Source of the DNA: Thuidium tamariscinum
Lineage: Eukaryota > Streptophyta > Bryopsida > Hypnales > Thuidiaceae
NCBI GenBank assembly: GCA_947034885.2
Contig: OX344752.2
Span: forward strand, 1,984,001-2,048,000
Direction of reading: 5' to 3'
Length of the DNA: 64,000 bases
The translations under genes were made by a program, and so were the position numbers. The notes beneath the pieces are model-generated. The model saw nothing but the letters and a program-made list of their open reading frames with translations, searched no databases and was not told the DNA's origin. This document shows positions 17,520 to 55,129 of this stretch, piece after piece; position 1 is the stretch's first letter, and the number at the start of each line of letters is the position of its first letter.

Positions 17520-18245
17520 CTTCATTCTATGTCATCTCAAGAAAACCAAAAGTTCACCACCACCTCTTTATGATTTCCACAATTTTTCTATCTTGATCCC
17601 TTGACAAGTTAGATTTAAGGATCCTTACTATCCATTAGTTTGTAATTTTATAGTACACTTGATGTTTGCCCTCCATTGTTGAGCTTGACATTCTGCATTT
17701 GATTTGTAGTTGATCCTTGCAATATTGCATTTTCATTTGTTGCAATTGCTTTGATATGTAATTACAACATGTTGGAATGTATTTGCCTCATGTGATTTTT
17801 CTATACCCTTGAAGACTCAACAAAAGTTGCAGTGAATAGCATTCAAACATGACGTTGAGAAAAATTGACTTGGACCAATCTATATGACTCTCTTGAATTT
17901 CCAATGGACACACCTCATTCCTTTTTGTGCTTCCAAAGGGCTTTTTTCCTTCTAAATGTGGTGTTCATTATTCAAGAGTTCTAATACCTTCAACTCCAAA
18001 CAATGTGTTCAAGAACTTCTTCTATTTGGAGAATCTTCACTTCATCTTGCAAAATCTCAACTTCAACTCCCTTTTTGATGAACCAAATTCAAATGACTTT
18101 TTGAGTACTCATGGTATTTTTTTCATTTGCATTCATGCATAGATTTTATTATTGCAGTACTGTAAAACAAATTGTTTTTTTGGTTTTCAAACAATTGAAG
18201 CCACTTGTTATGATTTGTTTCTTACAAATTGCTCAAAGGTATGTC

Positions 18246-18272
18246 AAGGCCTTATTCGTTAAAATGAGACAA
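18246..18272 (+). repeat. left terminal inverted repeat of the giant element
   Basis: 27 bp, identical to the reverse complement of 37070-37096. TGTC precedes it, and a second AAAATGAGAC lies within the next 20 bp. Confidence 0.85.
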
Positions 18273-18685
18273 AATGGTCAAAATGAGACTTTGAAGAAGT
18301 GAATGCAAAGATCCATGAGATCCATAGTTGTTGAAATCAAAGATACAAGAAGCTTGAGGTACGAGAGAGATCATGGAGTGCATTGAACATGTTCCCACTT
18401 ATGACATCATAGAAGTAAGAGGAATTACATTGATAGTGAATGAAAGATGCATATATGGAAGAGCAATTGAATTTACATTCCGTACAATTTATGTGCCCAA
18501 AACTTTAAGTCCCAAAAAGAGTGCCCCTAGTTACTCACAGTGGCACCTAGAGGTAATGAAGTACCTACTACTTTGTTTAGCGTGTGTAAGCTTAGAAATG
18601 AAGAAGTTCACTGTACATGGAACTCACTTCTTTCTGAATATGGTGTGCAATGCCTAAATATTGAAGACCTCACAGACGAATGATT

Positions 18686-19600
18686 TTAGGGTTTAAGGGC
18701 TGTCGCCTCACTACTAGTATTGGCTGTACACTTTGGCTTCGTGCTTTCCATCTCTTTGAGTTTAGCGAGAGCCCGGAAGATATCCTCGCGTCGAGAAGGA
18801 TAGTGAGGTCCACTTTCAGAAGCACCTCCGCCACATGAACAGAGGCTGTGCGATCCACTCTCCTTTCGCTTTGGCTTCCGGTTGCTCGGATGAACCTCCA
18901 AGTTTGAAAGAGACCTGGACCCACGAGGCGGCTTCGTCACCGACGTATTGACATTGTTTATGTACGCATGACCCGATCCAATGGACTTTGAATCCGAGGA
19001 TCGTCGATGATCTCTAATAACTCTATGACGAAAAAGAGTGTCGGCGGAAGAAGTTCTCTTCACCCCAACAGAGGACGCGGGCTTGGAATGGTTATCTTCG
19101 AGCCGAGGATGCTGCTTTGCTGGGGAGGATTCCAAATGTTCGCTCTTGGACTGTCGAGCGACGCGCAAATTCGGACCACTTGCGTCGACGACATGTTCCG
19201 GGACGGTCTTCGTATCTCCATCTTTGCCTCGAGGATCGAGGGCAACTTCCATAACAGTGAGGTCCAATTTTCGGTTTGTGCCCACCTCCGTCCGCGGAGA
19301 TGGGGAGAACGAGTGTTCTCGACCAGAAAACGTCCACTTTAGGGGCGACGGTGAGCAGATGGGCGTCCGCGGGGGCCCCCGACTTGGGGGACTGTCAACG
19401 ACGCCGTCCTCGATGTCGCCCTTGGAGAAGTCGATCGCCGCGTCCGCGGCGTCCGCGGCGGAGCGCATCATGAATGGTTTGGAGACCGGGATCGTCCCGC
19501 AGCTCCCCCCCACGAAATCGGAGGCATGTGAGACGGACTTCTCGGATCCGGAGAGAAGACTCCTCGTTAGTTTTTGTCCTGCAAGCGTCTTCCCAAGAAC
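18686..19600 (-). CDS. Ser/Pro-rich basic protein, probable 3' exon of the element's minus-strand gene
   Basis: 304 codons, open from a splice-acceptor-like TTCTGGCAG|GTTC at 19600 to TAA at 18686. The product is hydrophilic and low in complexity, with many Ser-Pro and Arg-Lys pairs and an acidic patch near the start. No known domain is visible. It may join the upstream phosphatase-like exon by a CGC|GTGACT donor at 19778 (both phase 0), extending that protein; the donor is weak, so a separate gene is possible. A degenerate copy of the element's palindrome at 19093-19111 is translated here as H-P-R-L-E-D. Confidence 0.55.
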   Translation of the reverse strand, partial: VLGKTLAGQKLTRSLLSGSEKSVSHASDFVGGSCGTIPVSKPFMMRSAADAADAAIDFSKGDIEDGVVDSPPSRGPPRTPICSPSPLKWTFSGREHSFSPSPRTEVGTNRKLDLTVMEVALDPRGKDGDTKTVPEHVVDASGPNLRVARQSKSEHLESSPAKQHPRLEDNHSKPASSVGVKRTSSADTLFRHRVIRDHRRSSDSKSIGSGHAYINNVNTSVTKPPRGSRSLSNLEVHPSNRKPKRKESGSHSLCSCGGGASESGPHYPSRREDIFRALAKLKEMESTKPKCTANTSSEATALKP

Positions 19601-19762
19601 CTGCCAGAAGACAAGAGGATGCTTTGCTTGAAAAGACAATGTACAAAAAACCAGAACATGCATCGACAATCGCAGAGAGAATATCAGGTTTGGAAGTCAA
19701 ATTTTTATATACAAAATAATGTACCACGTACAAATTTACAGCGTTCATGAAGTGCCCAGCCA

Positions 19763-20608
19763 CTAAGAGTGAGTCACGCGGGTGCTACGCCTGGCTGGCT
19801 CTACGACTATGCCTAGTCCACGGAGGTCGTAACGATGGCCAAGGTTATTGGTGGAATTCCTCATCCCCTCCAACATGTTCTTGACATGGTAATCCGAGGC
19901 TTCCAGAGGTTTCGACCCAATGCGATTGGCCTCAACGAAATCCCGCATGCCCCCTCGGCGACACTCCGTATCCAGACGATGAAGCCAGGGCAACAACTTC
20001 TCTAAGAGGAAGTTGTCCCTCCGCTGCCCGTGGCTCCATTTGTCCAGGAAAATGGCATTCCCCCTCTCATTGCAGAGGCTCTTTTCAGGAGTATCGTCAA
20101 TGAGGAGGGTATTGTCCGGCCCGAATGATGTGTCCCCACTAGGATTAGAGAAAAGCTGTTCGGAAAGATCCTTGAAGAGGCTATATTTTCCTGCGCGCGA
20201 GAGGAAATTCCCCTTGGACAACTCTATCTTCCTGCACTGCTCCTGTGCTAAGACATCGAAAGGGGCCTTGCACTGGCTGAAAAGGTGCGCTGCGATAGGT
20301 TCTGCGTTGGACCTGTACATCGAGGTCCACACCAGAATCCTATCCGCGAACTTGGAGACCTCTCGGAGGAACTCCACCACATTCTGATGCGCGAAGACCG
20401 CTTTGGGTCCGATGATAGTGGGCACTCTGTGGCAGAGAACATTGTCTTCGATCCTGTACGTCTTCATTTTTTCGGCATATGCTGTCAGGGCGCATTGGCA
20501 CAGTATTCCGTTGAGGTCGAAGACAATGTTCGGCCACTTCCTCCGCGCCCCGGGTACTACACGGGGGACCTCCCTCGGCACGCTCTCTCTCCGCTCCCCG
20601 CACTCTAC
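19763..20608 (-). CDS. FCP1/NIF (HAD-superfamily) phosphatase-like domain
   Basis: 281 codons from the acceptor CAG|GTAGAG at 20608 to the stop at 19763. HAD motif I reads V-F-D-L-N-G-I-L (residues 29-36); W-T-S in I-L-V-W-T-S matches motif II and L-I-D-D-T-P-E-K-S motif IV. Family members dephosphorylate Ser/Thr, classically on the RNA polymerase II C-terminal domain, using D-x-D-x. Here the second Asp is Asn (N33), so catalysis is doubtful and a phosphopeptide-binding role is possible. The Asp-Leu-Asn form also occurs in plant NIF-domain proteins, so the change need not be recent damage. An in-frame ATG at 20626 lies 18 bases before the acceptor, so a stand-alone gene is the alternative to a terminal exon. 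Confidence 0.75.
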   Translation of the reverse strand, partial: VECGERRESVPREVPRVVPGARRKWPNIVFDLNGILCQCALTAYAEKMKTYRIEDNVLCHRVPTIIGPKAVFAHQNVVEFLREVSKFADRILVWTSMYRSNAEPIAAHLFSQCKAPFDVLAQEQCRKIELSKGNFLSRAGKYSLFKDLSEQLFSNPSGDTSFGPDNTLLIDDTPEKSLCNERGNAIFLDKWSHGQRRDNFLLEKLLPWLHRLDTECRRGGMRDFVEANRIGSKPLEASDYHVKNMLEGMRNSTNNLGHRYDLRGLGIVVEPARRSTRVTHS

Positions 20609-21134
20609 CTGATCATTGCAAGACAACAGAGAAAAGAGTTACCTGGTTGAACGCAGAGGTTGGGGAGCCAGACAGTGGGGTCATGCATTGCATTCCTCTA
20701 ATTGACTGTGGGCTCCCATTAGGACTCGCTTTCAAAGGCAGCGGACAGCACACGCTTTTGTTTTTTGCGAGCTGATAAAAAACATGGAGAATAACAATAC
20801 AATTAGAGCAGAGGCATTTTGTAAATTCAATTCCGTATAATTTATTTACATAGATTATAGGATACATTCAAAATTGTTGTTCATCCAGAACCGACGGTTT
20901 CTACATTCACAGCTATGCTACACTACTCCACACACATCCCAATCGCAGACGGGATCGCCGTCCACACCGAGCGGTTAAGAATTAGACACGCCGTCCTGTC
21001 AAGCCGCATCAATGCAAATGAGAGTCCACTACTATCGCATGCACACAGTTGCTCAGGCCAATACCACTCGACGACGACCAACAACAAACACGTGATTTGT
21101 CTCAATCATATTTGTATGGATCCGATGATTGTAC

Positions 21135-22676
21135 CTGAGCGGGACTCTGTGTTGGCGTTTGCACTGCGCCCTCTACAAATGTCTCCAAGGCGAGATTTTC
21201 GTCCTGCGTTTCGTCCTCTTCCTCGTCCTCTTGCATCCCCTCGCCGTAGTCGACCATCTCTTCGTCGAGATCTTCAGACGCTTCCTGAGATGTTGGGCAG
21301 TGCACTGCCTCACCTTGTGCACCTGAGTGATGCACTTCTTCCACAACCGCAGCGAAACTCCCAGCCTCCTTCATGGGGACATCTTCGACTCGAAGATGTC
21401 CCTCCTTCCCAGAGTTCACTTCCACGACCCTGGAAGGCTCGTTGTGACGCTCGTCAAACGCCAACTGGTCTGACGCCCCAGACATAGTCGAAATTTGAGA
21501 AGTTGGAGTGGACGAGATGACATCCACATGCGCCAGCGAAACCACCTCCGCGGTATCTTCGAGTCGAGGATGTGCCAGAGGGAAACCTACGTGCTGCACT
21601 GGACCAGAAACGGTGGGAGCTGGAGCTTGAACTTCAACACTCTGAGAAGGTGCAGTCTGCGCACTCTGCGCAGGAGTTGAGTTCTGTGACTGCACCATTG
21701 CCATGAGTCTGTTAATCTGAGTGTTGAGCTCGGAAAATCTCACGTCGGAGTTGGCCTGCACTTCCTTCAGCTCCTTCTGGGCAGCTTGCGAAGCCGTGAT
21801 GGCTTCGGCGAGCTGCCTGTCCTTCTCCTCTCGCTCCTTCTTAAGCGCGGCCGTCTCATTCTTCCTCTGGATTTCTCGAGCCCGCCGTTGCTTGCGTCTC
21901 TCCTCGTCTTCCGCCCACCAACCCTTCTCCACCTTCACGGTCACTCCCGAAGGTGCAATAACAGGTTTCAGTTCCACCGCCTTGAATGGCTTGTCAGCCT
22001 CGTAATCATCGTCAGAATCGCGTCGATGATCGCCGGGGGAGTCCGGCTCATCCAGAATGATGAGATCATCTGGATTCTCAGGACCCCAGGGCTTCGCTCT
22101 TGTCTCCTCAACGACAAGGACATCTTCTTCCATGACCTCAGGAGTGAGGGCACGCGGGTTCACCTGCGTTGTGTGCATCTCTTCACCCTGCTCAACACGC
22201 TGCCGCTGCTACATCTCCCACTTCGAATCCGACTCAATATCCTCTTCTAAATCATCGACAGAAGGGACATCTACATCACCATGAGCAGCAGGCTGTCCTT
22301 CTGAGTTAGTGGGAGGAGGAGCAGCGCGTACAGCAGGAGCCACCATCCAGCCATGAATTTGGAATATGTTTGTTCCAAATTCATCTATCCCCTGTACGCC
22401 AGGGTCGTCACTGGTTTGGGGACCAACGTTCTCGCGCTGCCGGTTCGCTGGCCCTATGGATTGCGGAGGAGAGACCAAATCTGTCGTTGGAGACGGAGGA
22501 GAATTGGAGTTCACAATGACAGGGCCTTGACTGACTGGACGTTCGTATGTGAGAGAATATGGGGAATTCCCAAACATGTAATCATTCTTGTCCATCCTGT
22601 CAGCCAGGTGCGCGATGGAGCGCAAGCCTTTGTCATCTCCACGGTCCACAAACCCATAAAAGTACGCTCCAAACAT
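21135..22676 (-). CDS. acidic coiled-coil exon interrupted by one TAG (TE gene, exon c)
   Basis: 514 codons between the acceptor GCAG|ATG at 22676 and the donor CAG|GTAC at 21135, all phase 0, broken once by TAG at 22209-22211. Before the stop is a Pro-rich region; after it come an acidic stretch, a Lys/Arg/Glu coiled coil (about codons 254-328), Gln/Ser-rich linkers and a very acidic tail. The palindrome is translated twice, as H-P-R-L-E-D (21554-21572) and H-L-R-V-E-D-V (21381-21397). No catalytic domain is recognised. Codon-like composition on both sides of the TAG in one frame points to a nonsense mutation, not an intergenic gap. Confidence 0.6.
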
Positions 22677-22874
22677 CTGCAAGCCAAAGACGCCTTCGTT
22701 ACAGTGCTTTGATAAAATACATCTCATTCACATGCGACCAATACCAAGCTGCATCATCGACTCGAAGATCACTATTCCAAAAACATGATCAGCACTGTAG
22801 AAGACAAAATCCTAATAGATAACGACATTCAATTATCTTCGAGTCGAAGATATCTCTCAAAATGGGGGACTGAC

Positions 22875-24248
22875 CTTTGAAGCGAGTAGGAATTTCGTGC
22901 CACAGTAAATCCCGAGGACGTTATCTTCAGGCTTCACGAAGTCTTGGAGGATTTCAAGGTAGAACTCCATGCGAAGTTCAGTGGCATTAATGCGCCATTT
23001 TGCCTCCGTGTTCCACCTGAACTCGTTGTAGTACAAGGCGTCATGTGGTACCATGTAACGTGTCCTCACATAAGCACGGGCCGAGGTAGCAAATGAGTTT
23101 CCTCTTTTGAAGAGGAAAAGCAGCGGCACATCTGCAACCTTATCAGCGGATCTGTTGGAGACATTGTTCAGCCTCTCCGCTTTTGAGACGACGTACTTCG
23201 ATGAAACAGAGTCGAAGTCCTTCATCTTCGCAGTCGCGAAGCTCTTGGCAGCTCTCAAATCCTCAGGGCCATCCAAAATAAGAAGCCACACGTTGGGCTC
23301 AGAAATTTTGGGCTCCAATTTCTCCGCCAGAAAATTGAAAAATGGATCCAGCGCAGCTGTGGTATCAGTAGGCTTCGACCTTGGCACCTGCCTTCCATCC
23401 AAGACGGCCAGGTTCACCACTCGATTGTGATAGTGGTAACTTGTGCTCGTCACCAGCGCCCTCGCTGCGATGTCGATGCCCCTCACCATCACTCCCCCAG
23501 AAGGTTCTTCAAGTCTATACTTCAACTTGATAAACTTCGTGACCATATGCAGCACTGCCGGAAATTTCTCCGCAAGATCTTGCGCTGTCTTTGTCCAAGC
23601 ATCATTCTGGAGTCGCCGCTTGAAATATTCTGCCTTGGGATGAGAAAGCAAGAAATCCCAAGTCCCCTAGGTGAACTTGTGGCGAGCTTTCCAGTCTCTC
23701 CAAGTTGCATCTACGACGTCTCCGTTCTTGTCAAAGAATTGTAGGGACGGCCTGACTGTCATCAAGTCCTGGAGAATGACTTTTTTCCTCTTCCTGCGAT
23801 CGACCCAATCTGTTGCTGTCATGTTGTCTACAATCAGCAATTTTGGCCTCGCCACAGACAGCTTGGGGTACGCGACCTTACGGTTTGGTGTTTCACCAAG
23901 CAAACCAATTGCGAACGCCTTGAAGTCGTTGTCAGTAAAACGACTGAAGTGTCTGAAGAACTCTTTCTTCAGTGAAGTTTTGGCACGATTAAAAGTCTTC
24001 GGATCGTTGTAGGGCTTCAGTGTGAAGGGGTCAAGGAGGTTCCCGTCAGCGTGCATGGTTAAGAACCTTTTCCAAGGGGCGAAGATATCGTCCGGCAAAG
24101 TGATAATCTGCAGTTCATTCTTTAGATCTGCAGGACCTCGAATCTGCACCCCATCTCTGTCCGGATTGATGTTCTGGAACCGCTTCACTATCAAGTCAAT
24201 GAATTTCTGCCCACCAGCACATTGAAGGACTCTTTCAATAAGTTGTCA
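22875..24248 (-). CDS. unknown TE-gene exon with in-frame TGA and TAG (exon b)
   Basis: 458 codons between the acceptor TAG| at 24249 and the donor AAG|GTCAGT at 22875. The first codon is TGA (24246-24248) and TAG interrupts at 23667-23669; the frame is otherwise open throughout, with protein-like composition. The downstream half contains a V-W-L-L-I-L-D-G-P stretch and K/R-rich surroundings. I do not recognise a family. The introns on both sides fit phase 0, and the intron at 24249-24417 is 169 bp. The stops suggest a decayed copy. Confidence 0.55.
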
Positions 24249-24417
24249 CTATCACAAAGGAGGGAATCAGGACAAGGGGATCATTATGCACTTGCTATGG
24301 CGACGACATGTTTGTCGTCTACAATGTTTCTCACATACATATCCTAACTAGAAGCAATATTCAAAAAAGAAGTGAGTATCTTCGACTCGAAGATACTCTG
24401 TGTTTGTTTTCTCTTAC

Positions 24418-25746
24418 CGTATACTTCGTCAAAGAATACACGGCACGGTTGCCACGCTGCACGCCTTCGTTCTCCACGTCCGTAGGCCGCTTGCAGGAGA
24501 TCCAGATGTTCCTGCAGCTAATGATTTGGTTTCCCCACGTTGGCTGCGCATGATTGAGATGATTTGTACAGTTGTAGAACTTAGATATAGTTGTCAGTTT
24601 GTTTATATCCAAAGTCCATACAATGTACGCATCCCAAGTCTGTAATTTTGTCTTTCTCTCTTCGCTGCAGCCTGAAAGTTGAAGTTCCTTGGAGGCCGAG
24701 ATGTTGTGTTGACCGTTTATGATCATGAACTGCCCTTTCTCTATGTCTTCCCATTTCTTAGGCGCAGTCTTCAGCAATCTCAATTGCTTGTCCACAGGTG
24801 TCAAGCAAACCTTCTGACGCTGACTCACGTCGATGATCTGCACCAGTTCTTTCTTCACAGCATCAACAATATCTCGTTGTAAAGTGCGAATGATGTACTG
24901 GTCGCGGGCGATATTACACTGGTCTATGTGCACTTTAACAGTTTCCATCCCGAAGAGAAAGCATGATTCGTGCTTGGCCCAGAATTCTTTCTGGATGAGA
25001 TTGAATTTGTCATGCTCTTCAATGGGTGCATCCTTAAGGAGCTGACTCGCTTCTGCTGTAGTCAATCCAGAACCTGAGCTTCCAGCGGTTAAAGACACAT
25101 TTGACAGATTGGACTTCTTTCTCTTCCGACTAGGCTCACCAGGTGTAGAGCTTGGCGCTATGGATTTCCGGGGCTCGGATCTAGCCGGGGTCGGTCTCGC
25201 CCCACGAGTTGGGGGAGGAGTTGATGTGGACTGCGTCCGCCGTGTAGCTTGGGAGAGGTTGTGCGCTTGAGTCGCTGAACCACCTACTGCTAGTCTCTTC
25301 TCGACGTTCTTCACTGCGTAATGATCAAGCGCTTGCCATATCAGACGTAGTCTCTTGGCGTTTGACTTAGCAGTGCTGTGCCTCCAAGGCACGTATCCAG
25401 CGTTCTCGAACTCTGCATTCAATGGGTCCATCTGGGATCCCTCCAGAAATGTCATCAGGTTCTGCAAGTCAAATTTTCCGTGGTGCGCATTGACATCAAG
25501 CACAATGGAGTGGCTGTGTTGGCCGGCCTGTCCGTTTTCGTCTACCTCTCTGAGGACGATGACAACGTAATCATCCCTGTGTTCCTCGATCAAAGTGACC
25601 TTCTCTTTCAGATTCCATGGGAGGTAGGCTTCTTTACCCTGAACACGGTACCGAAGGTACACGTAGTCTCTCCAGCGATTCACTCCGAAACTCCAGGTTG
25701 AGATGTGCTCTTTAAATTGCCACAGTTGGCCGTATGATTCCTCCAT
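24418..25746 (-). CDS. 5' exon of the element's minus-strand gene (exon a), unknown domain
   Basis: 443 codons from ATG at 25746 to the donor ACG|GTAAGA at 24418. The first ~160 residues look globular (W-rich, with L-P-W-N-L-K-E-K), followed by a low-complexity Ser/Pro/Thr/Arg linker with a basic R-K-R-K-K cluster that could be a nuclear localisation signal, then another globular part. Protein-like sequence extends upstream of 25746 in the same frame to a TGA at 25822-25824, while an ATG at 25836-25838 lies in a shifted frame. The true start may therefore have been lost to a frameshift or stop. The function is unknown. Confidence 0.6.
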
Positions 25747-25860
25747 TTCGTCAAAGAATGGTTTGTCCAGGAATGGGTTAATAAATTCTTCCAGATGTTG
25801 CTCAGTCGTTGTGTAGTCGTATCATCTGATTGGTCCATTTGTATTTCCTGAAATGAGAAG

Positions 25861-27100
25861 AGAAGAACGATTAGTAATTAGCTCCATCTTCGACTCGAAG
25901 ATAATTAGACTTCTCTGGTTTAATTCATCGGGATATTCAGGGCACGCAATCAATTTCTTAGAAATAGTCAGTATCTTTTTTGGCGATGCGAACTTCTGAG
26001 GACGCTTACAGAGACACTAATTTCTTTGTTCTGTGAATGAGATATCTTCGACTTAAACATAGAATTTTCTTCTGAGAGAGGTGTTTGATGGCACTTCTGA
26101 AGGCGCTTTTTTTATCGGGATGTTTTCGTAGGCTTAAATTTAATTGTTTTGGAGGCTATCTTCGAATCGAAGATAGGTTTCTTCTGTGATTGTGGTCTCT
26201 GAGGTAGGCTCAAAAACCAACACCTAAAGACGTTCTAGTCGGCAGTACTCTAGAAGATGGAAATTCTATAGGACATCTTCGAGTCGAAGATACCGGACCC
26301 TACTATCGAGGATTTGGTTTCCCCGCACTCCAGTCTGAAACCCTAATGAATGAAGTTCTATAGGACATCTTCGAGTCGAAGATACCAGACCCCACTATCG
26401 ATTATTTGCACGCACTTCACTCTGAAACCCTAACGACATTCCACATCCCAGACACTGATTTCCAAAACCCTAACGTAGGACCAACTCTTCAGTTGTCATG
26501 GTTTTGTATTCAAAGTCCCTGCATATTGACAGTGCTTTCACAACACAAGTATTTCCACTAAAAGTATGCCTGTTCAGTCACTTTGGGCAAGAGTTTTAAA
26601 CCCTAAACCCTAACATAGAACCACAACTACTTCCAGATACCACTGCTTTTAAAAACAGATTCAGAATTTCAAAAGTTCAATTTCAACATTGCAACACATT
26701 CAGAATTTCAAAAGTGCAATGTCAACATTGCAACATAAGTAATGCGATAGCTTTCCTTACCTTCGAATTCACACCTTGTCTTCACAGCAGAAGAACCACC
26801 GAACACAAGCAACTGAAATTCAACTTCTGCCGAAGAACACAAGGTCCGAATTAGTCCTCTATACACAGGTGAGGTCAATTGCACTCCTCACTCCGCTTGC
26901 CACAAACAAGATCAAACTCAATCCCCATCCACTTTGTAACAGTGAAACTACCTACCTGAATTGGGCTACAGGATTGAATATTCACGTTCACTAACAATAC
27001 GAAGCATTGCAAAGTGCACCCTCATTCATTGCACCCTGATTCATTGGAATTGGAAGACAGCAACACATACTCACCGTAAGTCGTAACACAAAAAACACGG
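25861..27100. other. upstream region of the minus-strand gene with telomere-like tract
   Basis: Holds four palindrome copies and scattered CCCTAA motifs (AAACCCTAATG, AAACCCTAACG, AAACCCTAAACCCTAAC) between about 26336 and 26615. No open frame is convincing. It probably includes the 5' UTR or promoter of the leftward gene. Confidence 0.5.
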
Positions 27101-27870
27101 ATTGCAACTAAGTCGATGCAGAACCCTGAAACCTCAAACAACGGGTCGGCAAGGCGGGACGAACTCTGCAAGTGGCGAGGACAGCAAGCGCATTAACTCT
27201 CAACAACAAGAACTGCAATCTCCCACAAGAAAACAAGAAATTCAAAACAAGCACCTCACAAGCACTTGCGGTGCCAAAGAACCTCGTCCGACTAGCGCTC
27301 ACCTCCGAGTCTCCGACCACAAAATCCAAGCCGACCCAAGCCGCGCTTCACACGGAGGCTACAAGCAGATGGCGCGTCACAAGTCAGGGTGCACTTCTCC
27401 ACGCAATGGAGAGAGCGCGATCAATAGCGCAGCGCAGGAGAAAGAAACCAGCGCCAAGGCAGGAACTACAAATGTCTCCCGAGCGCCCTCTCAAGCACTT
27501 TTGTAACCCAGAAAAAATCCTCCACCCACCGAGACAGTCCCCACGCCCCGAGACCTTCTACACGCCCCGAGACCTGCCCCACACACCGAAACCTGCACCA
27601 CGTACCGAGAGAACAAAAAGGAGCAAAACAAAGCGCAAGACGGAGATGGCGCGCCACAGAACGAGGAAGACGGAGTTCGAAACAGGAAAAGCCCTAAACC
27701 CTAATCGCGACCTTCATCGTAACTCCCTGGTACCCAGACTTCTTGCCCATACCCGCCTTGGTCACATACCCTCCTCTCTTGCCATACCCGCCTTGTTACA
27801 ATACCCGCCTTGTTCCCATATCTGCCCAGGAGCGGAGAGACGACTGCCCTAACCTGCCCAGCACGTTCGT
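27100..27870. other. GC-richer block with low-complexity open frames
   Basis: Both strands are open for up to 226 codons, but the composition (Arg, Pro, Thr, Lys only) is what GC-rich non-coding DNA gives. At 27740-27825 CATACCCGCCTTG recurs about four times with a period near 18. It could be a CpG-rich promoter between the two divergent genes. No gene is called. Confidence 0.4.
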
Positions 27871-28045
27871 TCCCGAACCTGGCTGCGAGTTTCGGCACCG
27901 AAGCAGCCGAACGAACCCAGGAACCTATACATCAAGTTTGGCACCAAAGTAGTGGAACGCACCCACGAACCTAGATCTTTGGTTCGGCAGCAAAGCACTC
28001 TAACAAGCCCATAGACTTAGGATTCAAGTTCGGCACCAAAGCAAT
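27866..28045. repeat. 46-bp tandem repeat, about 3.5 copies
   Basis: Units beginning TTCGGCACCRAAGCA recur at 27891, 27937, 27983 and 28029, exactly 46 bp apart, with GAACCTA in the second half of each. Confidence 0.85.
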
Positions 28046-29100
28046 GTAATAAGGTTCATAATGATTCAATGTATAAGGGTAGGTGTGCATGAGTATGATT
28101 AAACAATTCTTTTCACCAAAATAATAAAGAAAAAACAATTCTATATATTAATAACAATTTAGGATTGAAAAGGCAATTCCTCGTTTCATCCATGTTTTCT
28201 AAATGAGAACGACATGGATGAGTCTCTAAATTTGGATGAAGAATTTTGGGTATAGAACAGTTAATAATTCATCCATGTGTATTTGTAGAACAAAATTAAC
28301 AAACAGTTATGTGCAATCTTAGAAATGTTTGTCTACAAATGAAGGAAATCACCTATGTTTTGAAGAATAAATTTAAATCTCGTGTACAGTACCTTTGTTT
28401 TGTAGTAATTAAAAGAAAAGAATATCATTTTCGAAAACCATAATTTTTAATACTCATGTTTTGGGCTACAATATACTCTTCTATTAAAGGATGAATTCAA
28501 AAATTGAATGTCAACTACGTAGTACTAAGATGAAGTTCTCATCAAGAGTTGAAGCTTTTAAGTATGTAGGGACTTGTAGAAGGTATTTAAAATTTTCAAT
28601 ACACATTTTTGGAGAATTAAGTATTTCAACTTTTTGTAAGAATAAATAAAAAATCAATGAATATTACATGAAGCTGTTACAGAACTACAGTGGTCCAAAT
28701 GTAATTCTTCATCATACAAAGTCTTTAGTAGTATACTATATTTTATAGAAATATAGAACATAGGAAGAGAAATCCTATGAAAGAGTGGTCTTCTACAGAG
28801 ACTTCCTTAATTAGAGAAACTTTAACCTTCCAATACTTTTTAGGTAAACGTAGACCCTCAAATTCAATTGAAGTTTTTTCTTAATAGTATTCACCAATAA
28901 GTTAATCCAAATTACTTCATTAAAGTAATTTGAAAAAAAACACTATTTTCTGAATGAAGTAAAAAAAAAAATTTTAATGTATCTAAACAAAGCTCAATTT
29001 TTTTTAAATATAAAACCATAGTACTCTATGGAATCATACAAATAAAACCATGGTACTCTATGGTATCATCGAACAAAAGGTAGACAATTTGAAGTTTAGA
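28046..29100. other. AT-rich spacer
   Basis: No gene is visible. A 31-bp duplication with an internal CCATAGTACTCTATGG near-palindrome lies at about 29015-29075, just before the satellite. Confidence 0.5.
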
Positions 29101-29109
29101 ATAGAAATT

Positions 29110-31000
29110 TGTCATGGAACATGAAAGCTCTATGACATTCCAAGTTCTCCGTAACTTTTTTTGTCATCACTTCACGTTCATTTTCAATTCTTTAAGCCAA
29201 TTTTAAAGCCATTTTTAAAAAAGCCCAGAAACTGGTCGGGTACTCTTTTTCTCCAAAGTCAACAGAAGGTAGAGAATTTGAAGTTGGGAATGGAAATTTG
29301 TCATAGAACATGAATGTTCTATGTCATTCTAACTTCCCCATATTTTTTTGTCCACCCTTTTACGTCGATTTTCAATTCTTTTGGCCATTTACACATAAAG
29401 CCAAAAAATGACAAAGTAGGCTATTTTTTGAAATGTAACAAAAAATAGAGAATTTTATGCTAAGAATGAAAATTTGTCATAGAACATGAAAGTTCTATGA
29501 CATTCCAAGTTACCCATATTTTTTTGGGTCATCACTTCACGTTCATTTTCAATTCTTTAAGCCAATTTTTAAAAAAAACCAGGAAAGGGCTGGGTAGTTC
29601 TTTTCTCCAAATCCAACAAAAGGTAGAAAATTTGAAGTTGGGAATGGAAATTTGTCATAGAACATGAATGTTCTATGTCATTCTAACTTCCCCGTATTTT
29701 TTTGTCCACCCTTTTACGTCGATTTTCAATTCTTTTGGCCATGTACACATAAAGCCAAAAAATGACAAAGTAGGCTATTTTTTGAAATGTAACAAAAAAT
29801 AGAGAATTTTATGCTAAAAATGAAAATTTGTCATAGAACATGAAAGTTCTATGACATTCCAAGTTACCCATATTTTTCTGGGTCATCACTTCACGTTCAT
29901 TTTCAATTATTGAAGTCATTTTAAAAAAAACCCAGGAAAAGGCTGGGTAGTTCTTTTCTCCAAATCCAACAAAAGGTAGAGAATTTGAAGTTGGGAATGG
30001 AAATTTGTCATAGAACATGAATGTTTTATGTCATTTCAACTTCCCCATATTTTTTTTGTCCACCCTTTTAGGTCGATTTTCAATTCTTTTGGCCATGTAC
30101 ACATAAAGCCAAAAAATGACAAGGTAGGCTATTTTTTGAAATGTAACAAAAAATAGAGAATTTTATGCTAAAAATGAAAATTTGTCATAGAACATGAAAG
30201 TTCTATGACATTCCAAGTTACCCATATTTTTCTGGGTCATCACTTCACGTTCATTTTCAATTATTGAAGTCATTTTAAAAAAAACCCAGGAAAGGGCTAG
30301 GTAGTTCTTTTCTCCAAATCCAACAGAAGGTAGAGAATTTGAAGTTGGGAATGGAAATTTGTCATAGAACATGAATGTTCTATGTCATTCTAACTTCCCC
30401 ATATTTTTTTTGTCCACCCTTTTACGTCGATTTTCAATTCTTTTGGCCATTTACATATAAAGCCAAAAAATGACAAAGTAGGCTATTTTTTGAAATGTAA
30501 CAAAAAATAGAGAATTTTATGCTAAAAATGAAAATTTGTCATAGAACATGAAAGTTCTATGACATTCCAAGTTACCCATATTTTTCTGGGTCATCACTTC
30601 ACGTTCATTTTCAATTATTTAAGTCATTTTAAAAAAAAACCAAGAAAGGGCTGGGTAGTTCTTTTCTCCAAATCCAACAAAAGGTAGAGAATTTGAAGTT
30701 GGGAATGGAAATTTGTCATAGAACATGAATGTTCTATGTCATTCTAACTTCCCCATATTTTTTTTTTGTCCCCCTTTATGTAGATTTTCAACTCTTTAGA
30801 CCATTTAGGAAAAATCCAAAAAGTAGACGGGTAGTCCATTTTTTGAAATTCAACAAAGGGTAGACAATTTGAAGTTTGGAATGGGAATTCGTTGTAGAAC
30901 ATGAATGTTCATTGACATTTGAGCTTCCCCATATTTTATTTCGTCTCACCTTCACGTTCACTTGATTTTGAACTCTTTAAGGCACATTAAAAAAAAACCC
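29110..31000 (+). repeat. 177-bp satellite array, A/B dimer organisation
   Basis: The landmark CATAGAAC recurs at 29302, 29478, 29656, 29832, 30009, 30186, 30363, 30540 and 30717, at intervals of 176-178 bp, with diverged copies at both ends. Two alternating monomer types (GAATGTTC and GAAAGTTC after the landmark) make a ~354-bp higher-order unit. Each monomer carries a dyad: in type A, 10-bp arms CATAGAACAT and ATGTTCTATG around GA. Confidence 0.93.
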
Positions 31001-31769
31001 TAGAAAAGACGTGATTTGAAGGTTTTAACGTGTTAAAACCAGAAAAGACATTCTTTTGGAGAAAAGAGAAGTGGAAGTTGTCAAATTAAAAAGTTCCATT
31101 ATTATTTCCAAAAAAAACTTCTATACATGTGTAGTATTTATTTTTCAAAGTGGGAATGGTGAACCTTAAATTTCTGAAAATAATATTATAGGTCTCCTAG
31201 GCGTATAAAAGCAAATGCAGGGTTGAGGCCCCTAGAAGATGTAAGAATTCAGTAATCATCGAACATCTTTATAGAATGACTGTTTTCCAATACATGCCGG
31301 CTATGTGTCCAAAAAATATTTCATAAAGTGAAAAGAGTAAACCCTACAAATTGAAATAAAAATTTCTAAATCTTGTAAGGCTAGAAACAAATGTGCATGT
31401 TTAATATAAAGGAAAACAGGACTTCAAAAATCATGCAATATTCATGTTCCATGATTCCTTCTCGTAAAATGCCTTTCACGAGTATTAAATTCCTTTAAAT
31501 GAAGTAGGAAACACAAACCCTACAATTTTCAGTATAATATACGAAGTCTTCTGTGGTTTCCAAATGATGAGTACATTCAGACCAAGAAAAATGTAGAAGT
31601 GCTAAAGTTATGGAAAATTCATATTTCCTGATTATTTTCCATGACATGCTCAGTACGTGTGTCAACTTCTTTTATAAAATAGAAATGGTAAACCTTGTGA
31701 CTCTAATAAGAAATTCTGGAAAGTCTTCTAGAAATAGGTATGTAAAGTATACAATTGGGAAGAATTATC

Positions 31770-31915
31770 CCTGAACCCTAAACACTAAACCCTTGAACCG
31801 AAGCTCTCAAACCAGAATTCTAACCCCTAAACCTGAACCCTAAACCCTATCCCCTAACCCAAACCCTAACCCCTTACCCTAGACCCTAACCTTGAACCCT
31901 AAGCCCTAAGCTATC
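31770..31915. repeat. degenerate interstitial telomere-like repeat (CCCTAAA type)
   Basis: At least twelve CCCTAA-like words with 0-3 intervening bases, running as CCCTAAAC, CCTGAACCCTAAACCC and similar. The motif is that of plant (Arabidopsis-type) telomeres, in imperfect array. Confidence 0.8.
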
Positions 31916-32199
31916 ACTCGCTGAGTGACACCTACAACAATCATGGGGAAACAACGCTGGAAATTCAAGACATGCTGAAATAGTATTGGGTAGGTGGAAG
32001 GGTTAATTAAGATAACATGAGAATAATGCTATAAACGGCCAACTTTTGTTGGCCGCTACCGAATGTACCTAGGAAGTTGCATCAGACAACTCGTAAAAGT
32101 AACCGGGAATTTCGAAGCCTCCAAGGAATCTAAATACAGAAGGTCAATTCCCTGTATGGAGGTTTGCGAATTTTGAAATGCACATTTGGGCGGCAAGAA

Positions 32200-32224
32200 T
32201 TTCCCGCCCATCTTTCCGCGGGAA
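32200..32224. promoter_or_regulatory. pair of inverted E2F-like sites
   Basis: TTTCCCGC at 32200-32207 is a perfect plant E2F consensus (TTTSSCGC). GCGGGAA at 32218-32224 is a second site in the opposite orientation. They lie about 1.45 kb before the ATG of the 950-aa gene. E2F sites usually drive S-phase expression; the link to this gene is inference. Confidence 0.35.
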
Positions 32225-32650
32225 TTTCACGGCGGATGACCCAGCCTCGAAGCATAGCGAAGCCATTCCATTTGCTTGCATTCCTAAACCGCTCTCCAGT
32301 CCATCGCATTCTTTAGAGAGATGAGCCTATTAGTTGTTTTTTATTTGCTCTATACAGAAGAGTGACATTTTCGCTGACCGGACACAAGAAGGTGACTTGC
32401 TGCAAACTGTCTTTATACTTCTTCCAGATTAGTGCATGACGTCCTACTTGTGAAGGATATTGAACCCTCTGCTTTCATCTTTGTAGTGTATTTAAGGTTT
32501 GTCTAGTTCATCATATTGTGTTCGAGAAGTCGTCGTGGAAGTCGAGGAAGTCGTCTGAGACTATGTTCTGCGTCGGGGCTTTGTGGGATCCCGAAATTTG
32601 CGCCGTTAATTTCGGAAGTCCTTCTTGGCATTCAATGTTCATGCATACAT

Positions 32651-33375
32651 TATCTTCGACTCGAAGATAACCAAGCTGCGTATTCGTAGCTTCATTTTAT
32701 GTCGTCGTCGAATATTCTAATGACATATATCTTCGAGTCAAAGATAATGAAACTGTGACGACAAATCTTCCAAACAGAATTTAGAGCATCTAATTCTAGA
32801 GAGTCATGTTATAAACTAATATATAAATCATCGGAGAGTATCTTCGAATCGAGGATATCAGAATGTATCCTAGAATTTCAGTGAGATCCACATATCTTCG
32901 ACCCGAAGATACGAAGGAATCACTTATCCTCAACTATGTCTTCAAGTGAAAAATAACGTAGTCAAGGTTTCGTAGCCAAGTATAGTGGACTCACATTATC
33001 GAATCCAGAAACCTTACATTCATAGATTTAAAGTCCAGTATCTTCGAGTCGAAGATACCGTAGTTAACTATCATGGTGGACTCAGCGATATGACAGTGAG
33101 ATGTTATTGGCGCAAGTTCCTATATCTAAGTACCTTCATGAGAGAGATATCACAATGACAAAAATAATGACATTGACATTTACGATTAAAGACAAATGTT
33201 GTACGGAATGAGAATGATGAAAACTTAGGTTGGGGGTTATTTGAAGTCATTTTGATGATTTCCAGTGACTGCAATTTTATAAACTGGTCCTAATGTTTGA
33301 ATTCATACAGGAAATGTTCGTCTTAAGATCAAATGCTCTTTAGAATAATGTGGCCTTATCTTCGACTCGAAGATA
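32651..33375. repeat. palindrome family TATCTTCGASTCGAAGATA, cluster II
   Basis: Copies at 32651-32669, 32728-32746, 32839-32857, 32893-32911, 33039-33057 and 33357-33375. Three are perfect and the others differ at one to three positions. All lie in the 1 kb before the coding exon of the plus-strand gene, and none is inside that exon. Confidence 0.9.
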
Positions 33376-33658
33376 GAATTCTAATCTAAAATCTACTAGT
33401 TCAAAACTTATTACTTGGAATGTTTGAGATGATATGTACATGAGAACATCTTATTCATTTGTTCTATCATCACAACCAGTACATTCACATGAATGGCAAA
33501 TGTATTTGCGTTTACACTAAGAATGTATATTGCAATGGCAATTTTGGTAATGTTCACGATTGTAGCTCCCATATAGTCATCTCTAATATGCTTTGCATAC
33601 TCGTTATTTATCTTCAAGTAAATTATTGGAGTTAATATTTCGTTCTGTTACTTGCAGA

Positions 33659-36511
33659 ATGGATTATCATGGACCTGACGACTTCAGCGCACCAGTTCCT
33701 ACACTTCCACTTGATGTTCGTTTATGTGATGGATTACCTCGTGCAAAGTGGGTGACGCAGCCTGTCACTCTTCAAGATGAAAATGGAGTGGACGTTGCAA
33801 GAGGTGTAATTCAGAACATTGACCCTGAACTGGTCATTGACCAGAATGGGCAGTCGCTTGGAGATGATCGAGTTGCCATTCATATTGCGGAGTCTTTGAA
33901 TGAAGACTTGTTCCCCTCTTCAAATATGTGGTCACTACGTTCTTGGCCCATTAGGAGGGTAGTCCTTCACGATGGTGCTTCTCTCTATAACCACGATGAG
34001 ACACAAAAGTACAATGCGGCTTTGAATCCCAAAAAAATTCGGAAGGGAGTTCGAGTGTATGAATCAACCCGTGTGAGAATTGATTCTGAGGTCCTCCCTA
34101 AGAAAGACCTTCTGTTGACTATGGAATCAATCACACAAGTTTCTACAAAAACTTGTTGCGAGAAGAATTGTGTACAACCTTTTCCGCGTGCCCAAATTCA
34201 GGCAATACGCACTGATTTGTATGCAGGAAATGACTACAAGGCTCGCAATAGAACACTTCTGGAGGTGCATAGGCAGATCCACAAAGATGCTAATGGCAAA
34301 GAGATGATCACCTTGAAAGAGAGGGAAGTATGTCCTACTGCGTGGTGGATCATTCATGGAATTGCAAAATGTACGTACTATAGGTACAAAGAGAAAGCGA
34401 AAATAGGAAGGCAAGCTGATGTACACGGGAATTTAGGAAGTAAGAAGCCTCGCATTCAAACTCTTCAAGCCACAGCCACCCTTCGAAAGTTAATTGAGTC
34501 GGATGCTGATAGGATGCCACACAAGACAAGGACACTTGAGTCTGGAGAGAAGGTTACTGCGATGGTTCTCCCATCGTCATTTCGCTGGAGTGATCAATTG
34601 CAAGCAATCAATGAATCCAATGCAAGCTTCAATTTGCCGCCCATTTCTTCGAGCGGTTTGAGCAATATTCGTCGTGACTCTTTTCCAGAGTTTGCTGCAA
34701 AGGCTCGTGGAGATTCATTTGCTAGATGTGGGTTATGTGACAAGTACAACCAATTAAGAAGCGCATGTGTGGGTGAGGAGGCAAAATCGAAGTGGGAAGA
34801 ATTGAAGAGAACCCATAATAATGGACAACTGGCTCATAGGCAGTACTACTATGGAAATCGAGATGAATCCGTAAAAGCGCCGGATAAAATGTTGTGCATC
34901 ATACATGACAAGATGGATCATTCGAAGACCGCTTCTCCACATTTTTCTCACAAGACGAAAGTAACGGAATCTTTCATGAAAATGCCTGTCGCGGTTACGG
35001 GTATGATTGCTCATGGACATGGTGACGTGCGATATGCACACTACGGTTTGAGTATTTATCCAAGCGACTCCAATCATACTATAGGGTCGATTGCAAAGTT
35101 GTTGCGTGATTTGGAAGGGCCGCCAAAGAATTCTTCACGAGCGTTATTTTCGGTAGAAGATAATCAATCCTCGTTAACAAAGGCGCTCTTACATGGAGCA
35201 GAAACTTGTGTGGACTCCTTGCTCCCACCCCCAAATGAACCGCTTCCAGCAAAACCTCTTCCCCCGGTATTAATACTGCAACTCGACAATTGTTCTGGAG
35301 ACAACAAGAATCGTTATGTTTTTGGTTTTTGCTCCATGCTTGTCTGTAAAGGCATTTTTCGCGAGGTGTATATCAACTTCCTCATTGTGGGCCACACTCA
35401 TGAAGACATCGATGCTCTTTTTGGTCGTTGGAGCTCCAGATTGAAGACAAACAATTATCCAACACTTCCGAGGCTCATGAAGTCCTTCATGGATTCTGAT
35501 GAGCACCCTGTGATTCCTCATCTCATTGAAGAAGTTCCTGACTTCAAGGCGTTCGTACATGGATACCTCGGCACGGGTGGGGACTTCCTAGAGGGTCATT
35601 CCAGATCTCAACAATTCAAGTTCTTCAAGGATTCTAATGGATGGCCTTTGATGGAATATAAACATTTGGTTACTGACGATAAATGGCTGCCCGAGGGTGG
35701 CAAGGGAATTAGATTGTGGTCAGAAACTGCTGACGGGCTTCCTAAAGTGCCATCAGGGAGTCCTCCACCTCTAGTTCCTGAACCAATGAAGGCTCTTCTA
35801 GATATAAAGAAGGGTTTGGATGGCTTTGTCCAATATTGGAAGAAAATGTCAAATGATGACTACACAGGAGAGTTCAGGCGAAAGAATGGTGCCTTGGAAG
35901 ATTATTGGAAAGGCGTTCGTGCGGCTTTGAATGCACCTCTTCAAGTGCGTGAGGCATTACTTGATGGATTTTGGCCAGCTTCCAGGATTGCCCCCAATGA
36001 GACCGATCGAATGCAAAGAGATGGCACATTGCATGAAGAAGACGCAGAAGACGCACCATTCGTTGGACGTAGACGTGATCGTCCACGGCCTTCATTCCGC
36101 GTTAATGTTGATACACACGAAGGTTCTTTCATCGCAGTGCGCCCTGCTGATGGGGACCCTAAACCATTTTGGCTTGCCCGGGCCATTACGGCTCCAAGTC
36201 CAGATCCAGGACATATGCATATGATCAAAATTCAGTATTGGACGCCTACTTCAAATCGGCACACTAATATGGAAACATATGAAGGATGGGACACAAAACA
36301 AGGGAATGTGTGGCGTGAAGACACCGCGATCCAGCCAACTTGGTCAAGTACGGGTTGTATCCTAACGGCTTGGAAGCCTCGTTTTCGGGAAAGTACTAAA
36401 CAACCGAAAGTGTCGATTCCAACTTTACAAATTGGCATCATTAAGGCATCATTGGTGGCCTTTACAATTGAAGAGCCCAACAATGAAGAAGATGAGCCTA
36501 TGGAAGAATGA
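33659..36511 (+). CDS. DDE/RNase H-like transposase-type protein (DUF7869-like), 950 aa
   Basis: Start chosen at 33659, directly after the acceptor TTACTTGCAG; the frame is open from 33593 but the first 22 codons look intronic. Cys motifs C-C-x3-C (about residue 160) and A-R-C-G-L-C-D-K suggest metal binding. The core has I-H-D-K-M-D-H (D417, D420), L-Q-L-D-N-C-S-G-D-N-K-N (D543) and G-H-T-H-E-D-I-D (E582, D583, D585), spaced as in an RNase H-fold nuclease. L-D-N-C-x-G-x-N-K-N and G-H-T-H-E-D-I-D are what I remember of the uncharacterised DUF7869 family, common in plant and invertebrate repeats. It is the only long intact frame in the 18.85 kb element and the most likely protein to move it. 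Its acidic C-terminus ends E-E-D-E-P-M-E-E. The family name is unverified. Confidence 0.8.
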   Translation: MDYHGPDDFSAPVPTLPLDVRLCDGLPRAKWVTQPVTLQDENGVDVARGVIQNIDPELVIDQNGQSLGDDRVAIHIAESLNEDLFPSSNMWSLRSWPIRRVVLHDGASLYNHDETQKYNAALNPKKIRKGVRVYESTRVRIDSEVLPKKDLLLTMESITQVSTKTCCEKNCVQPFPRAQIQAIRTDLYAGNDYKARNRTLLEVHRQIHKDANGKEMITLKEREVCPTAWWIIHGIAKCTYYRYKEKAKIGRQADVHGNLGSKKPRIQTLQATATLRKLIESDADRMPHKTRTLESGEKVTAMVLPSSFRWSDQLQAINESNASFNLPPISSSGLSNIRRDSFPEFAAKARGDSFARCGLCDKYNQLRSACVGEEAKSKWEELKRTHNNGQLAHRQYYYGNRDESVKAPDKMLCIIHDKMDHSKTASPHFSHKTKVTESFMKMPVAVTGMIAHGHGDVRYAHYGLSIYPSDSNHTIGSIAKLLRDLEGPPKNSSRALFSVEDNQSSLTKALLHGAETCVDSLLPPPNEPLPAKPLPPVLILQLDNCSGDNKNRYVFGFCSMLVCKGIFREVYINFLIVGHTHEDIDALFGRWSSRLKTNNYPTLPRLMKSFMDSDEHPVIPHLIEEVPDFKAFVHGYLGTGGDFLEGHSRSQQFKFFKDSNGWPLMEYKHLVTDDKWLPEGGKGIRLWSETADGLPKVPSGSPPPLVPEPMKALLDIKKGLDGFVQYWKKMSNDDYTGEFRRKNGALEDYWKGVRAALNAPLQVREALLDGFWPASRIAPNETDRMQRDGTLHEEDAEDAPFVGRRRDRPRPSFRVNVDTHEGSFIAVRPADGDPKPFWLARAITAPSPDPGHMHMIKIQYWTPTSNRHTNMETYEGWDTKQGNVWREDTAIQPTWSSTGCILTAWKPRFRESTKQPKVSIPTLQIGIIKASLVAFTIEEPNNEEDEPMEE

Positions 36512-37069
36512 ATATTTTATAGTTCTATTAGAAATAGGTGTTACTTTACTTATTGAATTTCAAGTTGTAGATTGCGTTTCTTAGTGTAGTTACAAATCAC
36601 TAGAATGATATTTGCTTGCATATATATAGGTCAAAGATATGGATGTGTCAGACATCACAAATATTGCAAGTAGGTAGTAGATATTGGTTTCTATTAATAG
36701 TATATATTATTTATGATTGCATCTCAATACTATGTGTAGAAAAAAATTCTTGCATAACAGAATATGTGATATGTTTATAAAGTCAAAGTGTATTATCATA
36801 AACTTTACATGTGTATTGCAAAAAGTGGAATTTTTCCATTTATCCTGAACTTCTAACTCAAAAATGTTTTGAAATATTTTGTTTACTTACAAAATAATTG
36901 GAAGATGAAATTTCGATGTTGATAGTGAATATTTTCAATTTACATAATTAAAAAAATAATAATAAAGTATATTTTTTGACATTTTCGAGTCTCAATTTAA
37001 TAAGAAGTCTCAATTTAATGAAGGCTTTTTTGGCCCTAAAATAGAAAGTCATTAAAATGAGACTACAAA
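36512..37069. other. 3' region and right subterminal region of the giant element
   Basis: AT-rich, without a gene. TCTCAATTTAAT occurs twice near 36990-37020 and AAAATGAGAC once near 37055, next to the right TIR, matching the motif repeated inside the left end. Confidence 0.6.
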
Positions 37070-37096
37070 TTGTCTCATTTTAACGAATAAGGCCTT
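37070..37096 (-). repeat. right terminal inverted repeat of the giant element
   Basis: Exact reverse complement of 18246-18272, followed by TGTC at 37097-37100. Confidence 0.85.
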
Positions 37097-37100
37097 TGTC

Positions 37101-48229: not shown

Positions 48230-48590
48230 TGAGGGCGGACGGCCTAAACCGCCCCTCTTATACCCTGGCGGACGCCCTAAACCTGTGCGGACGACCCGAC
48301 GAGGCGTTGTCTGCCGTCCGATCGAACGGACAGCGCGCACGCGTCCGCGCGATCAGACAGTCGTAGGATCGGGCGGCCGTGGGATTGGGCGGCCGCGCGA
48401 TCGGACGGCCGCGGACGGGCGGACGGATATGCGTCCGTCTCGTCAGACAGCAGGTCGGCAGTAATCCGTCCGCCGACGCAATGCACGTCGGAAACGCGTC
48501 CGCCCGATCGGGCGGATGGGAAGTCCGCCGTCCGATCAATCCGACGGATGACCATAATCGAGCGGGTGCCGTCCGCCTAATCCAACGGTC
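48230..48590 (-). promoter_or_regulatory. GC-rich GTCCG-type block with TATA-like box
   Basis: Dense CGGACGG/GTCCGCC words, several in opposed pairs around 48390-48420. On the minus strand GTATAAG (48257-48263) closes the block, about 190 bp before the kinase-like ATG. This may be a subterminal repeat region used as promoter. Confidence 0.5.
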
Positions 48591-48609
48591 TACTTTGTAG
48601 AAGGCCTTC

Positions 48610-54890: not shown

Positions 54891-55129
54891 GTCGGACGGC
54901 CCCTTCATTTTCCCTCACTTCTTTTCTCCTCACGAAGTGCTCCAAGTTGGATGTGCTGCTTATTGCCACATATGAGTGCGTGGTGCTAGTTGCTCCTACT
55001 TGGCGGAGAGAAGGGGTCATTACTTTTTCACGTCGAAGCTTTGATCGATTGTATTACGAAGACACGTTTCATACCCTCCGGTTCACATAATTTTGATTTG
55101 TAAGGGCTTGTAAATTCGGATTCTCTATC

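Follow-up and report, generated by a model that had tools for sequence, protein, structure and literature searches.

A palindrome repeated within a giant transposon of the moss Thuidium tamariscinum varies in spelling with the transposon's partner gene

The window, a 64,000-bp stretch of Thuidium tamariscinum DNA (C4:1984001-2048000), contains a giant transposon in which a 17-bp palindrome, ATCTTCGA-N-TCGAAGAT (half-site ATCnTCGA), recurs upstream of both main genes. Across related elements of the genome (363 Mb, 19 contigs), we observed that the palindromes are respelled as a set, and that the spelling tracks the partner gene that faces the transposase-like gene. This points to the partner protein as the reader of the sites. 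We judge it slightly better than an even chance that the partner protein recognises the palindromes of its own element, a self-recognition that would probably serve anti-silencing or self-activation by a logic like that of VANC and VANDAL, with unrelated parts.

The original prediction had described exact 27-bp inverted ends with TGTC directly outside both of them, and both features were confirmed (Table 1). The end sequence occurred twice in the window (0 matches expected), with no recurrence beyond the two ends of the element. Genome-wide, the 27-mer had 447 matches with at most two mismatches, compared to none for its reversed control. A search with the first 155 bp of the element gave, among the best 40 of 109 matches, 8 at 100% identity and 16 at 98% or more. 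Contig C11 (17.5 Mb of the 363 Mb) was enriched in copies, with 22 of these best 40 matches. Ten further copies were read for their borders (11 with the window copy). The right border was present in 10/10 and the left border in all nine whose left end was read, each with a single mismatch in one copy, and the borders did not fall elsewhere. Copy C11:9921349 is counted with its right border. Complete copies, including that of the window, were 18.06-19.54 kb long. Nine of the ten further copies were ~96-99% identical to the window copy over long aligned pieces; C2:47655598 is a diverged copy (78-92% by piece). The 447 matches and ten further copies show that the 27-bp pair is not confined to this locus, as it would be if two unrelated short elements had nested here.

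Perfect 4-bp duplications flanked 8 of the 11 copies, window included (TGTC, AGAT, AGGC, GACT, AGAA, CACT, CTTA and TTAT). Two more copies, C11:9002759 (plus strand, flanks AAAA/TAAA) and C11:9538741 (minus strand, flanks TAAA/AAAA), had perfect duplications once their right (inner) flanks were swapped. A 536-kb inversion between them, by recombination of the inverted copies, is therefore likely; the flanks are A-rich, and the inversion is not certain. Partner exon 2 was shorter by one base in both copies of this pair (C11:9002759-9538741, loci L009-L012). Because independent copies share inverted ends and duplications of fixed length, the element is a real multi-copy DNA transposon of the cut-and-paste type.

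Table 1. Positions of the element and its features in the window (1-based)
Feature	Position	Strand	Details
Whole element	18246..37096		18,851 bp; borders common to 10 further copies, as far as read
Left target-site duplication	18242..18245		TGTC
Right target-site duplication	37097..37100		TGTC
Left terminal inverted repeat	18246..18272	+	27 bp, exact
Right terminal inverted repeat	37070..37096	-	27 bp, exact
Transposase-like gene, DUF7869	33659..36511	+	950 aa; Pfam E 6.5e-46
Partner exon 1, coding part	25838-24418	-	1 base directly behind ATG missing from window copy, present in 9 close copies
Partner exon 2	24206-22875	-	One TAG in window copy
Partner exon 3	22676-21135	-	One TAG in window copy
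Partner exon 4, NIF/FCP1-like domain	20608-19763	-	PF03031 E 8.2e-13; best 134 of 477 places genome-wide
Additional open frame downstream of partner gene	18686..19696	-	Unclear status; dN/dS 0.54; 2 weak palindromes inside
4 palindromes upstream of partner gene	25886..26383		Starts 25886, 26158, 26275, 26367
6 palindromes upstream of DUF7869 gene	32652..33374		Starts 32652, 32729, 32840, 32894, 33040, 33358
Palindrome in partner intron 1	24378..24394		23 nt past exon end
2 palindromes in partner intron 2	22753..22851		Starts 22753, 22835
2 palindromes within partner exon 3	21381..21571		Starts 21381, 21555
2 weaker palindromes in downstream open frame	19094..19236		Starts 19094, 19220
177/354-bp satellite array	29105..30960		Array length differs between copies; not private to element

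The intact 950-aa DDE-like gene predicted earlier was recovered as an open frame that belongs to DUF7869 (PF25273; 156.8 bits, compared to a curated cut-off of 26); the D-D-E triad is a candidate only. DUF7869 was the sole Pfam match in this gene at E ≤ 10, and the gene did not qualify as a MULE transposase. The stretches IIHDKMDHS (from residue 414), LQLDNCSGDNKN (from 540) and GHTHEDIDALFG (from 578) could hold the D-D-E residues. Ten of the 11 copies contained all three, and the best match in the other copy stopped short of the third. The frame was open in 7/11 copies. Compared to the diverged copy C2:47655598, DUF7869 had a dN/dS of 0.09. The values for the window against three close copies were 1.4, 2.3 and 1.1, each derived from very few changes, and purifying selection on DUF7869 is therefore not visible among these copies of the recent burst.

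Beyond the recent burst, DUF7869 genes 84-89% identical to that of the window were found at 36 places (best 47 of 948 candidates). The DUF7869 genes of loci L030 and L032 fell outside these best 47, so more distant DUF7869 genes exist or were left unscored; that of L034 was 50% identical to the window's over its first 116 residues. Searches of viral contigs and phages (peptide pattern, tblastn) returned no DUF7869 relatives. DUF7869 appeared in no paper of the literature searched.

Sola elements make 4-bp target duplications. The 4-bp duplications observed here would suit that superfamily, and the D-D-E-like pattern, on our own reading, is a further likeness. No profile named for Sola came up among the domain matches. 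Sola elements measure a few kb (mean 5,445 bp for Sola1 in bivalves; PMC10294476), whereas the present elements reach 18-19 kb and include a partner gene of 1,713 codons. Starships are likewise large, many-gene eukaryotic elements, but they are reported to use a tyrosine recombinase (PMC12134995); the present element encodes a DUF7869 protein between inverted ends that are flanked by target duplications, and Pfam recognised no tyrosine-recombinase captain domain in the eight element frames scanned.

The divergent multi-exon gene with an FCP1-like domain, also part of the original prediction, lies head-to-head with the DUF7869 gene. It can be read, as a model, as one gene of four exons with 1,713 codons and a stop. 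The inner exon borders have AG before and GT after and are all in phase 0 (frame read in copies that have the base missing from the window copy). Exon lengths (1422/1332/1542/846) were exact in six of the ten further copies. Among the remaining copies, exon 2 was changed by one base in two and exon 1 carried an insertion in one. In C2:47655598, exon 3 was changed by three bases, and exons 2 and 3 each contained a stop; its joined partner frame was left out of the count (one-base mapping slip, exon 1). The exon 1 insertion, found in copy C10:13611634 (~255 bp, ~6.39-6.64 kb into locus L017), is bounded by the same 27-bp ends with two mismatches and one mismatch and, judged by these ends, is a nested MITE-like non-autonomous relative.

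The partner gene was broken in 11/11 copies read. The frame of the window copy is short of one base directly behind the start and is interrupted further on by two TAG stops. Since the DUF7869 frame remains open in 7/11, the partner gene is evidently not needed in cis. We also considered the TAG excess among partner stops as a sign of CHG methylation. The stops in the best 88 of 516 exon 1 places were TAG 114, TGA 37 and TAA 30, and the window frame offers 28, 13 and 12 possible transition sites, respectively; the excess is merely mild, and we set this idea aside.

Compared to the diverged copy C2:47655598, dN/dS was 0.08 in exon 1, 0.05 and 0.08 in two parts of exon 2, 0.22 and 0.37 in two parts of exon 3, and 0.19 in the NIF exon. 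The dS values for the same comparison (loci L027 and L028) rose from 0.06 in the NIF exon through 0.62 in DUF7869 to 1.3-1.8 in exons 1-2. This wide variation between segments points to an exchange of segments, or modules, between element lineages. The facing gene had been called cargo. Its many places genome-wide (exon 1 at the best 88 of 516 candidate places, the NIF exon at the best 134 of 477) argue instead that it is an old core component.

The NIF domain belongs to a family that is kin to phosphatases acting on RNA polymerase II, and its match here (48.8 bits, compared to a cut-off of 21.8) places exon 4 within PF03031. The usual catalytic motif of NIF/FCP1 proteins is DxDx(T/V); the window copy reads FDLNGIL, with the second D replaced by N. 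Phosphatase activity is thus doubtful, and with DLNG in place of the catalytic DxD the domain may bind instead of cut.

For the first ~900 residues of the partner protein, Pfam, PDB, PHROGs and NCBIfam gave no known family of weight, profile searches recognised no DNA-binding domain, and Pfam had no match in three exon-2 sequences. Single-sequence AlphaFold models reached a mean pLDDT of 32.8 and 33.6, too low to inform on the fold. Exon 1 had no relatives in viral contigs and prokaryote genomes (peptide pattern, tblastn, exon-1 alignment). A literature search found no paper that brings together an NLI interacting factor, a transposase and a terminal inverted repeat. Two candidate identities were rejected. 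A stretch near the end of exon 2, NVLG-F-AG-KF-LAAK, resembles what we take to be methyltransferase motifs; a beta-class methyltransferase found no support in Pfam or in PF01555 (N6/N4 DNA methyltransferase), whose best E of 0.54 was below the cut-off, with no match at the partner exons. Similarly, FMIINGQHSITAS resembles ParB/DGQHR motifs by eye; a search of this genome at E ≤ 10 gave no match to the ParB N-terminal domain, PF02195 (positive in 11/14 control genomes), and Pfam, PDB, PHROGs and NCBIfam had no weighty match.

Within the window, the palindrome is the private repeat of the element. With at most two mismatches, ATCTTCGA-S-TCGAAGAT occurred 16 times in the window, every time within the element (0.01 expected); a looser consensus gave 17 palindromes, again all in the element, leaving the remaining 45,149 bp free of them. 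Of the 17, ten fall in the upstream regions of the two genes, at distances of up to ~1.06 kb; partner introns 1 and 2 hold three, and exon 3 and the downstream frame two each. The DUF7869 frame, partner exons 1, 2 and 4, intron 3, the 5.75-kb middle and the element ends of the window copy hold none. Each of the eleven 20-kb stretches that contain the copies had 17-20 palindromes (three mismatches allowed).

Placement is conserved beyond the close copies. The intron 1 site was 14-23 nt past the exon end, as set by us, in 6/6 loci (window, L029, L031, L032, L033 and L034). When the window element was aligned with L034 (exon 1 43% identical), 17/17 blastn matches at E ≤ 1e-3 fell at palindromes. 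The palindromes thus keep their place and symmetry while the surrounding DNA is lost, and we conclude that they are under selection.

Private repeats had also been predicted for this element. This part of the prediction, which did not include the palindrome, failed for the satellite: the 177/354-bp array recurs at 48587-49374, beyond the element, and had 317 matches genome-wide, many of those listed lying beyond the copies read. The subterminal AAAATGAGAC-type repeats noted earlier were present, with 6 of 13 window matches (at most one mismatch) no more than ~110 bp from one of the ends; the total of 13 was not above chance (shuffle mean 9.8; 19/100 shuffles reach 13). Elsewhere in the window, we observed an open hAT-type transposase frame of 983 aa at 59650-62601 on the plus strand (DUF659 E 5.9e-35, Dimer_Tnp_hAT E 1.2e-7) and a RING finger open frame at 56712-57752, also on the plus strand (PF13639 E 2.3e-6), adjoined by a 531-aa frame at 55097-56692 with no Pfam match at E ≤ 0.1. 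Two adjoining 171-bp tandem arrays occupy 38981-40410, and their consensus units look partly reverse-complementary by eye.

Elements were grouped by the identity of partner exon 1 to that of the window: 67-100% in group 1, 53-61% in group 2, and 43-44% for L034, which with its relatives forms group 3. With L034 as the query, about 40 exon 1 places were at least 52% identical to it (best 86 of 549). The half-site letters at position 4 differed between the groups: T115 C9 A2 G0 in group 1 (8 loci, 63 sites), A62 G52 C47 T5 in group 2 (9 loci, 83 sites) and T38 C18 A0 G0 in group 3 (4 loci, 28 sites). Nine near-identical group-1 copies were left out of these totals, where the window represents them. 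A chi-square value computed on the totals assumes independent sites, an assumption that does not hold here. In the same DNA, the palindrome had 174 matches, compared to 0, 2 and 1 for three scrambled versions. In the group-2 elements L029, L031, L032 and L033 the layout of the sites was kept and position 4 was A, G or C with few exceptions; T or C stood there in L034 and three further group-3 loci, the latter chosen because palindromes were listed there.

We repeated the comparison at ten further loci from the exon 1 list, chosen by coordinates; nine were unseen, and the sites of C2:45565610 had been listed earlier. Site class tracked exon 1 similarity in 10/10. The T..A form was found in 22/23 sites where exon 1 was 67-81% identical (5/5 loci) and in 0/31 sites where it was 53-61% identical (5/5 loci). 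Genome-wide, the group-1 form had 303 exact matches and the group-2 form 1,011; the reversed controls had none. Among the sites listed, 50 per form, 48 of the group-1 form and 36 of the group-2 form lay at most 16 kb from an element gene (84/100, or 85 after one later addition); 16-kb zones around element genes make up about 1% of C1 and C2. Some group-3 loci appear under both forms because group 3 mixes T and C. The other 15 listed palindromes had no element gene found nearby. At C1:22086886-22087762, we observed seven exact group-2-type palindromes with no element gene found nearby, four of their six spacings being 169-182 bp, as in a tandem array.

The transposase and the ends did not follow this division. 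DUF7869 of the group-2 loci L029, L031 and L033 was 87%, 87% and 86% identical to that of the window (three of four group-2 elements that were read over long stretches), similar to the 88% of the group-1 copy C2:47655598; exon 1 of the same three loci was 61%, 54% and 54% identical. The spelling differs while DUF7869 is 86-87% alike and the 27-mer ends are the same, and the sites therefore go with the partner gene and not with the transposase or the ends.

Joint inheritance of site class and partner group reduces the association to one or two evolutionary events, not 21. In an exon 1 tree of seven sequences, one well-supported branch set group 1 apart from group 2. Once L034 was included, L031 and L033 branched off first and two changes were needed; one change fits only 12% of bootstrap trees. 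Group 2 may thus be a grade, and the switch may have run in either direction. Seven exon 1 columns separated the T-users from group 2 among eight sequences, and one of them was uniform on both sides (T410 versus R). At the ten further loci, residue 410 was T in 5/5 of group 1 and R in 4/5 or L in 1/5 of group 2; it was T in 3/3 further group-3 loci, though the sites there are T or C. A single-residue specificity code at residue 410 thus holds partly, and we do not adopt it.

The arrangement suggests a mechanism. As a dimer, the partner protein would bind the palindromes in the DNA of its own family. Through its RNA-polymerase-CTD-phosphatase-like (NIF) end, or through recruited host factors, it would keep the promoters of both genes open, by anti-silencing or self-activation, and the transposase would then be made. 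Sites upstream of both genes point to control of the element's own transcription, and the kinship of NIF with RNA polymerase II phosphatases fits such control. Partner protein and sites would drift jointly into new specificities, with the transposase and ends remaining shared and exchangeable.

Anti-silencing or self-activation appears the most likely role, and self-repression is its main rival. As a copy-number control, the partner would bind both promoters and shut the element down once copies suffice. The same anatomy fits, the loss of the partner in 11/11 copies with the transposase open in 7/11 would release a repressed element, and DLNG in the NIF domain makes phosphatase activity doubtful. 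A dN/dS of 0.05-0.08 would be unexpected for a repressor unless the element profits, and host silencing is usually a stronger limit on transposons than self-limitation; neither point is decisive, and we regard self-repression as unlikely.

The palindromes could instead be host transcription factor sites exploited by the elements, with the partner gene doing something else. That 10/17 sites lie within about 1 kb upstream of both genes is as expected of host sites, but one host factor does not explain different spellings in three groups of one genome, and the absence of sites from the window's 45 kb beyond the element and the proximity of 84/100 listed sites to element genes also make this quite unlikely. 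Dispersed internal transposase sites are known from other elements, which would favour binding or enhancer sites for the DUF7869 transposase. Against this stand the different spellings of groups 1 and 2 with similar transposases (compared in three group-2 elements) and an identical 27-mer end, and the terminal regions of the window copy, which hold no site; we consider it very unlikely. A partition system like ParB-parS, in which a ParB-like protein on the palindromes would maintain the element during a stage as a free circle or episome, draws on the by-eye likeness of FMIINGQHSITAS and on the multi-site array, and is extremely improbable given the missing PF02195, the lack of a ParA family among the Pfam matches of eight element frames, and sites that are spread over introns and the upstream regions of genes instead of forming one cluster.

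Self-recognition by the partner protein has its nearest counterpart in kind, in the literature searched, in the VANC work on the VANDAL MULEs of Arabidopsis (PMC5735166). According to PMC5735166 and PMC10398659, VANC proteins bind motifs in non-coding regions, VANC expression removes methylation, and motif variants differ between related elements. Both systems have a second, non-transposase element protein, short motifs repeated in the element's own non-coding DNA, and motif variants (C- and T-type in VANDAL, position 4 here) alongside diverged proteins. Joint diversification of such a protein with its own non-coding motifs was observed here over one or two switches. Unlike the VANDALs, the present elements have DUF7869 in place of a MULE transposase, 4-bp duplications, a dispersed 17-bp palindrome rather than tandem YAGTATTAY, and a partner for which no known family was found except NIF.

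Fungal DNA transposons with TET/JBP genes (KDZ elements) are not known to have a site array. They are comparable in carrying a gene possibly acting on silencing (PMC12730594), and differ in that no TET/JBP Pfam domain was present in the eight element frames scanned here. We put at an even chance that the moss elements represent a self-addressing system unrelated to VANDAL and of second, independent origin, in which an orphan ~900-aa module with a CTD-phosphatase-like domain reads a palindromic address. The address would be present 10-20 times in promoters and introns, and in exons too, and a change of the module would bring a new spelling of the whole set. Transposase and ends would be the common property of all address classes, and half-site position 4 would act as a simple symmetric code.

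The palindrome is a ready marker for finding such elements. If the binding is real, the partner may represent a new family of palindrome-reading proteins, useful for targeted epigenome control, and a variable half-site position within one genome would make specificity switching, cross-talk between families and the silencing arms race directly testable. Transposon self-recognition and anti-silencing would then not be peculiar to the VANDALs of Arabidopsis, but a strategy invented more than once.
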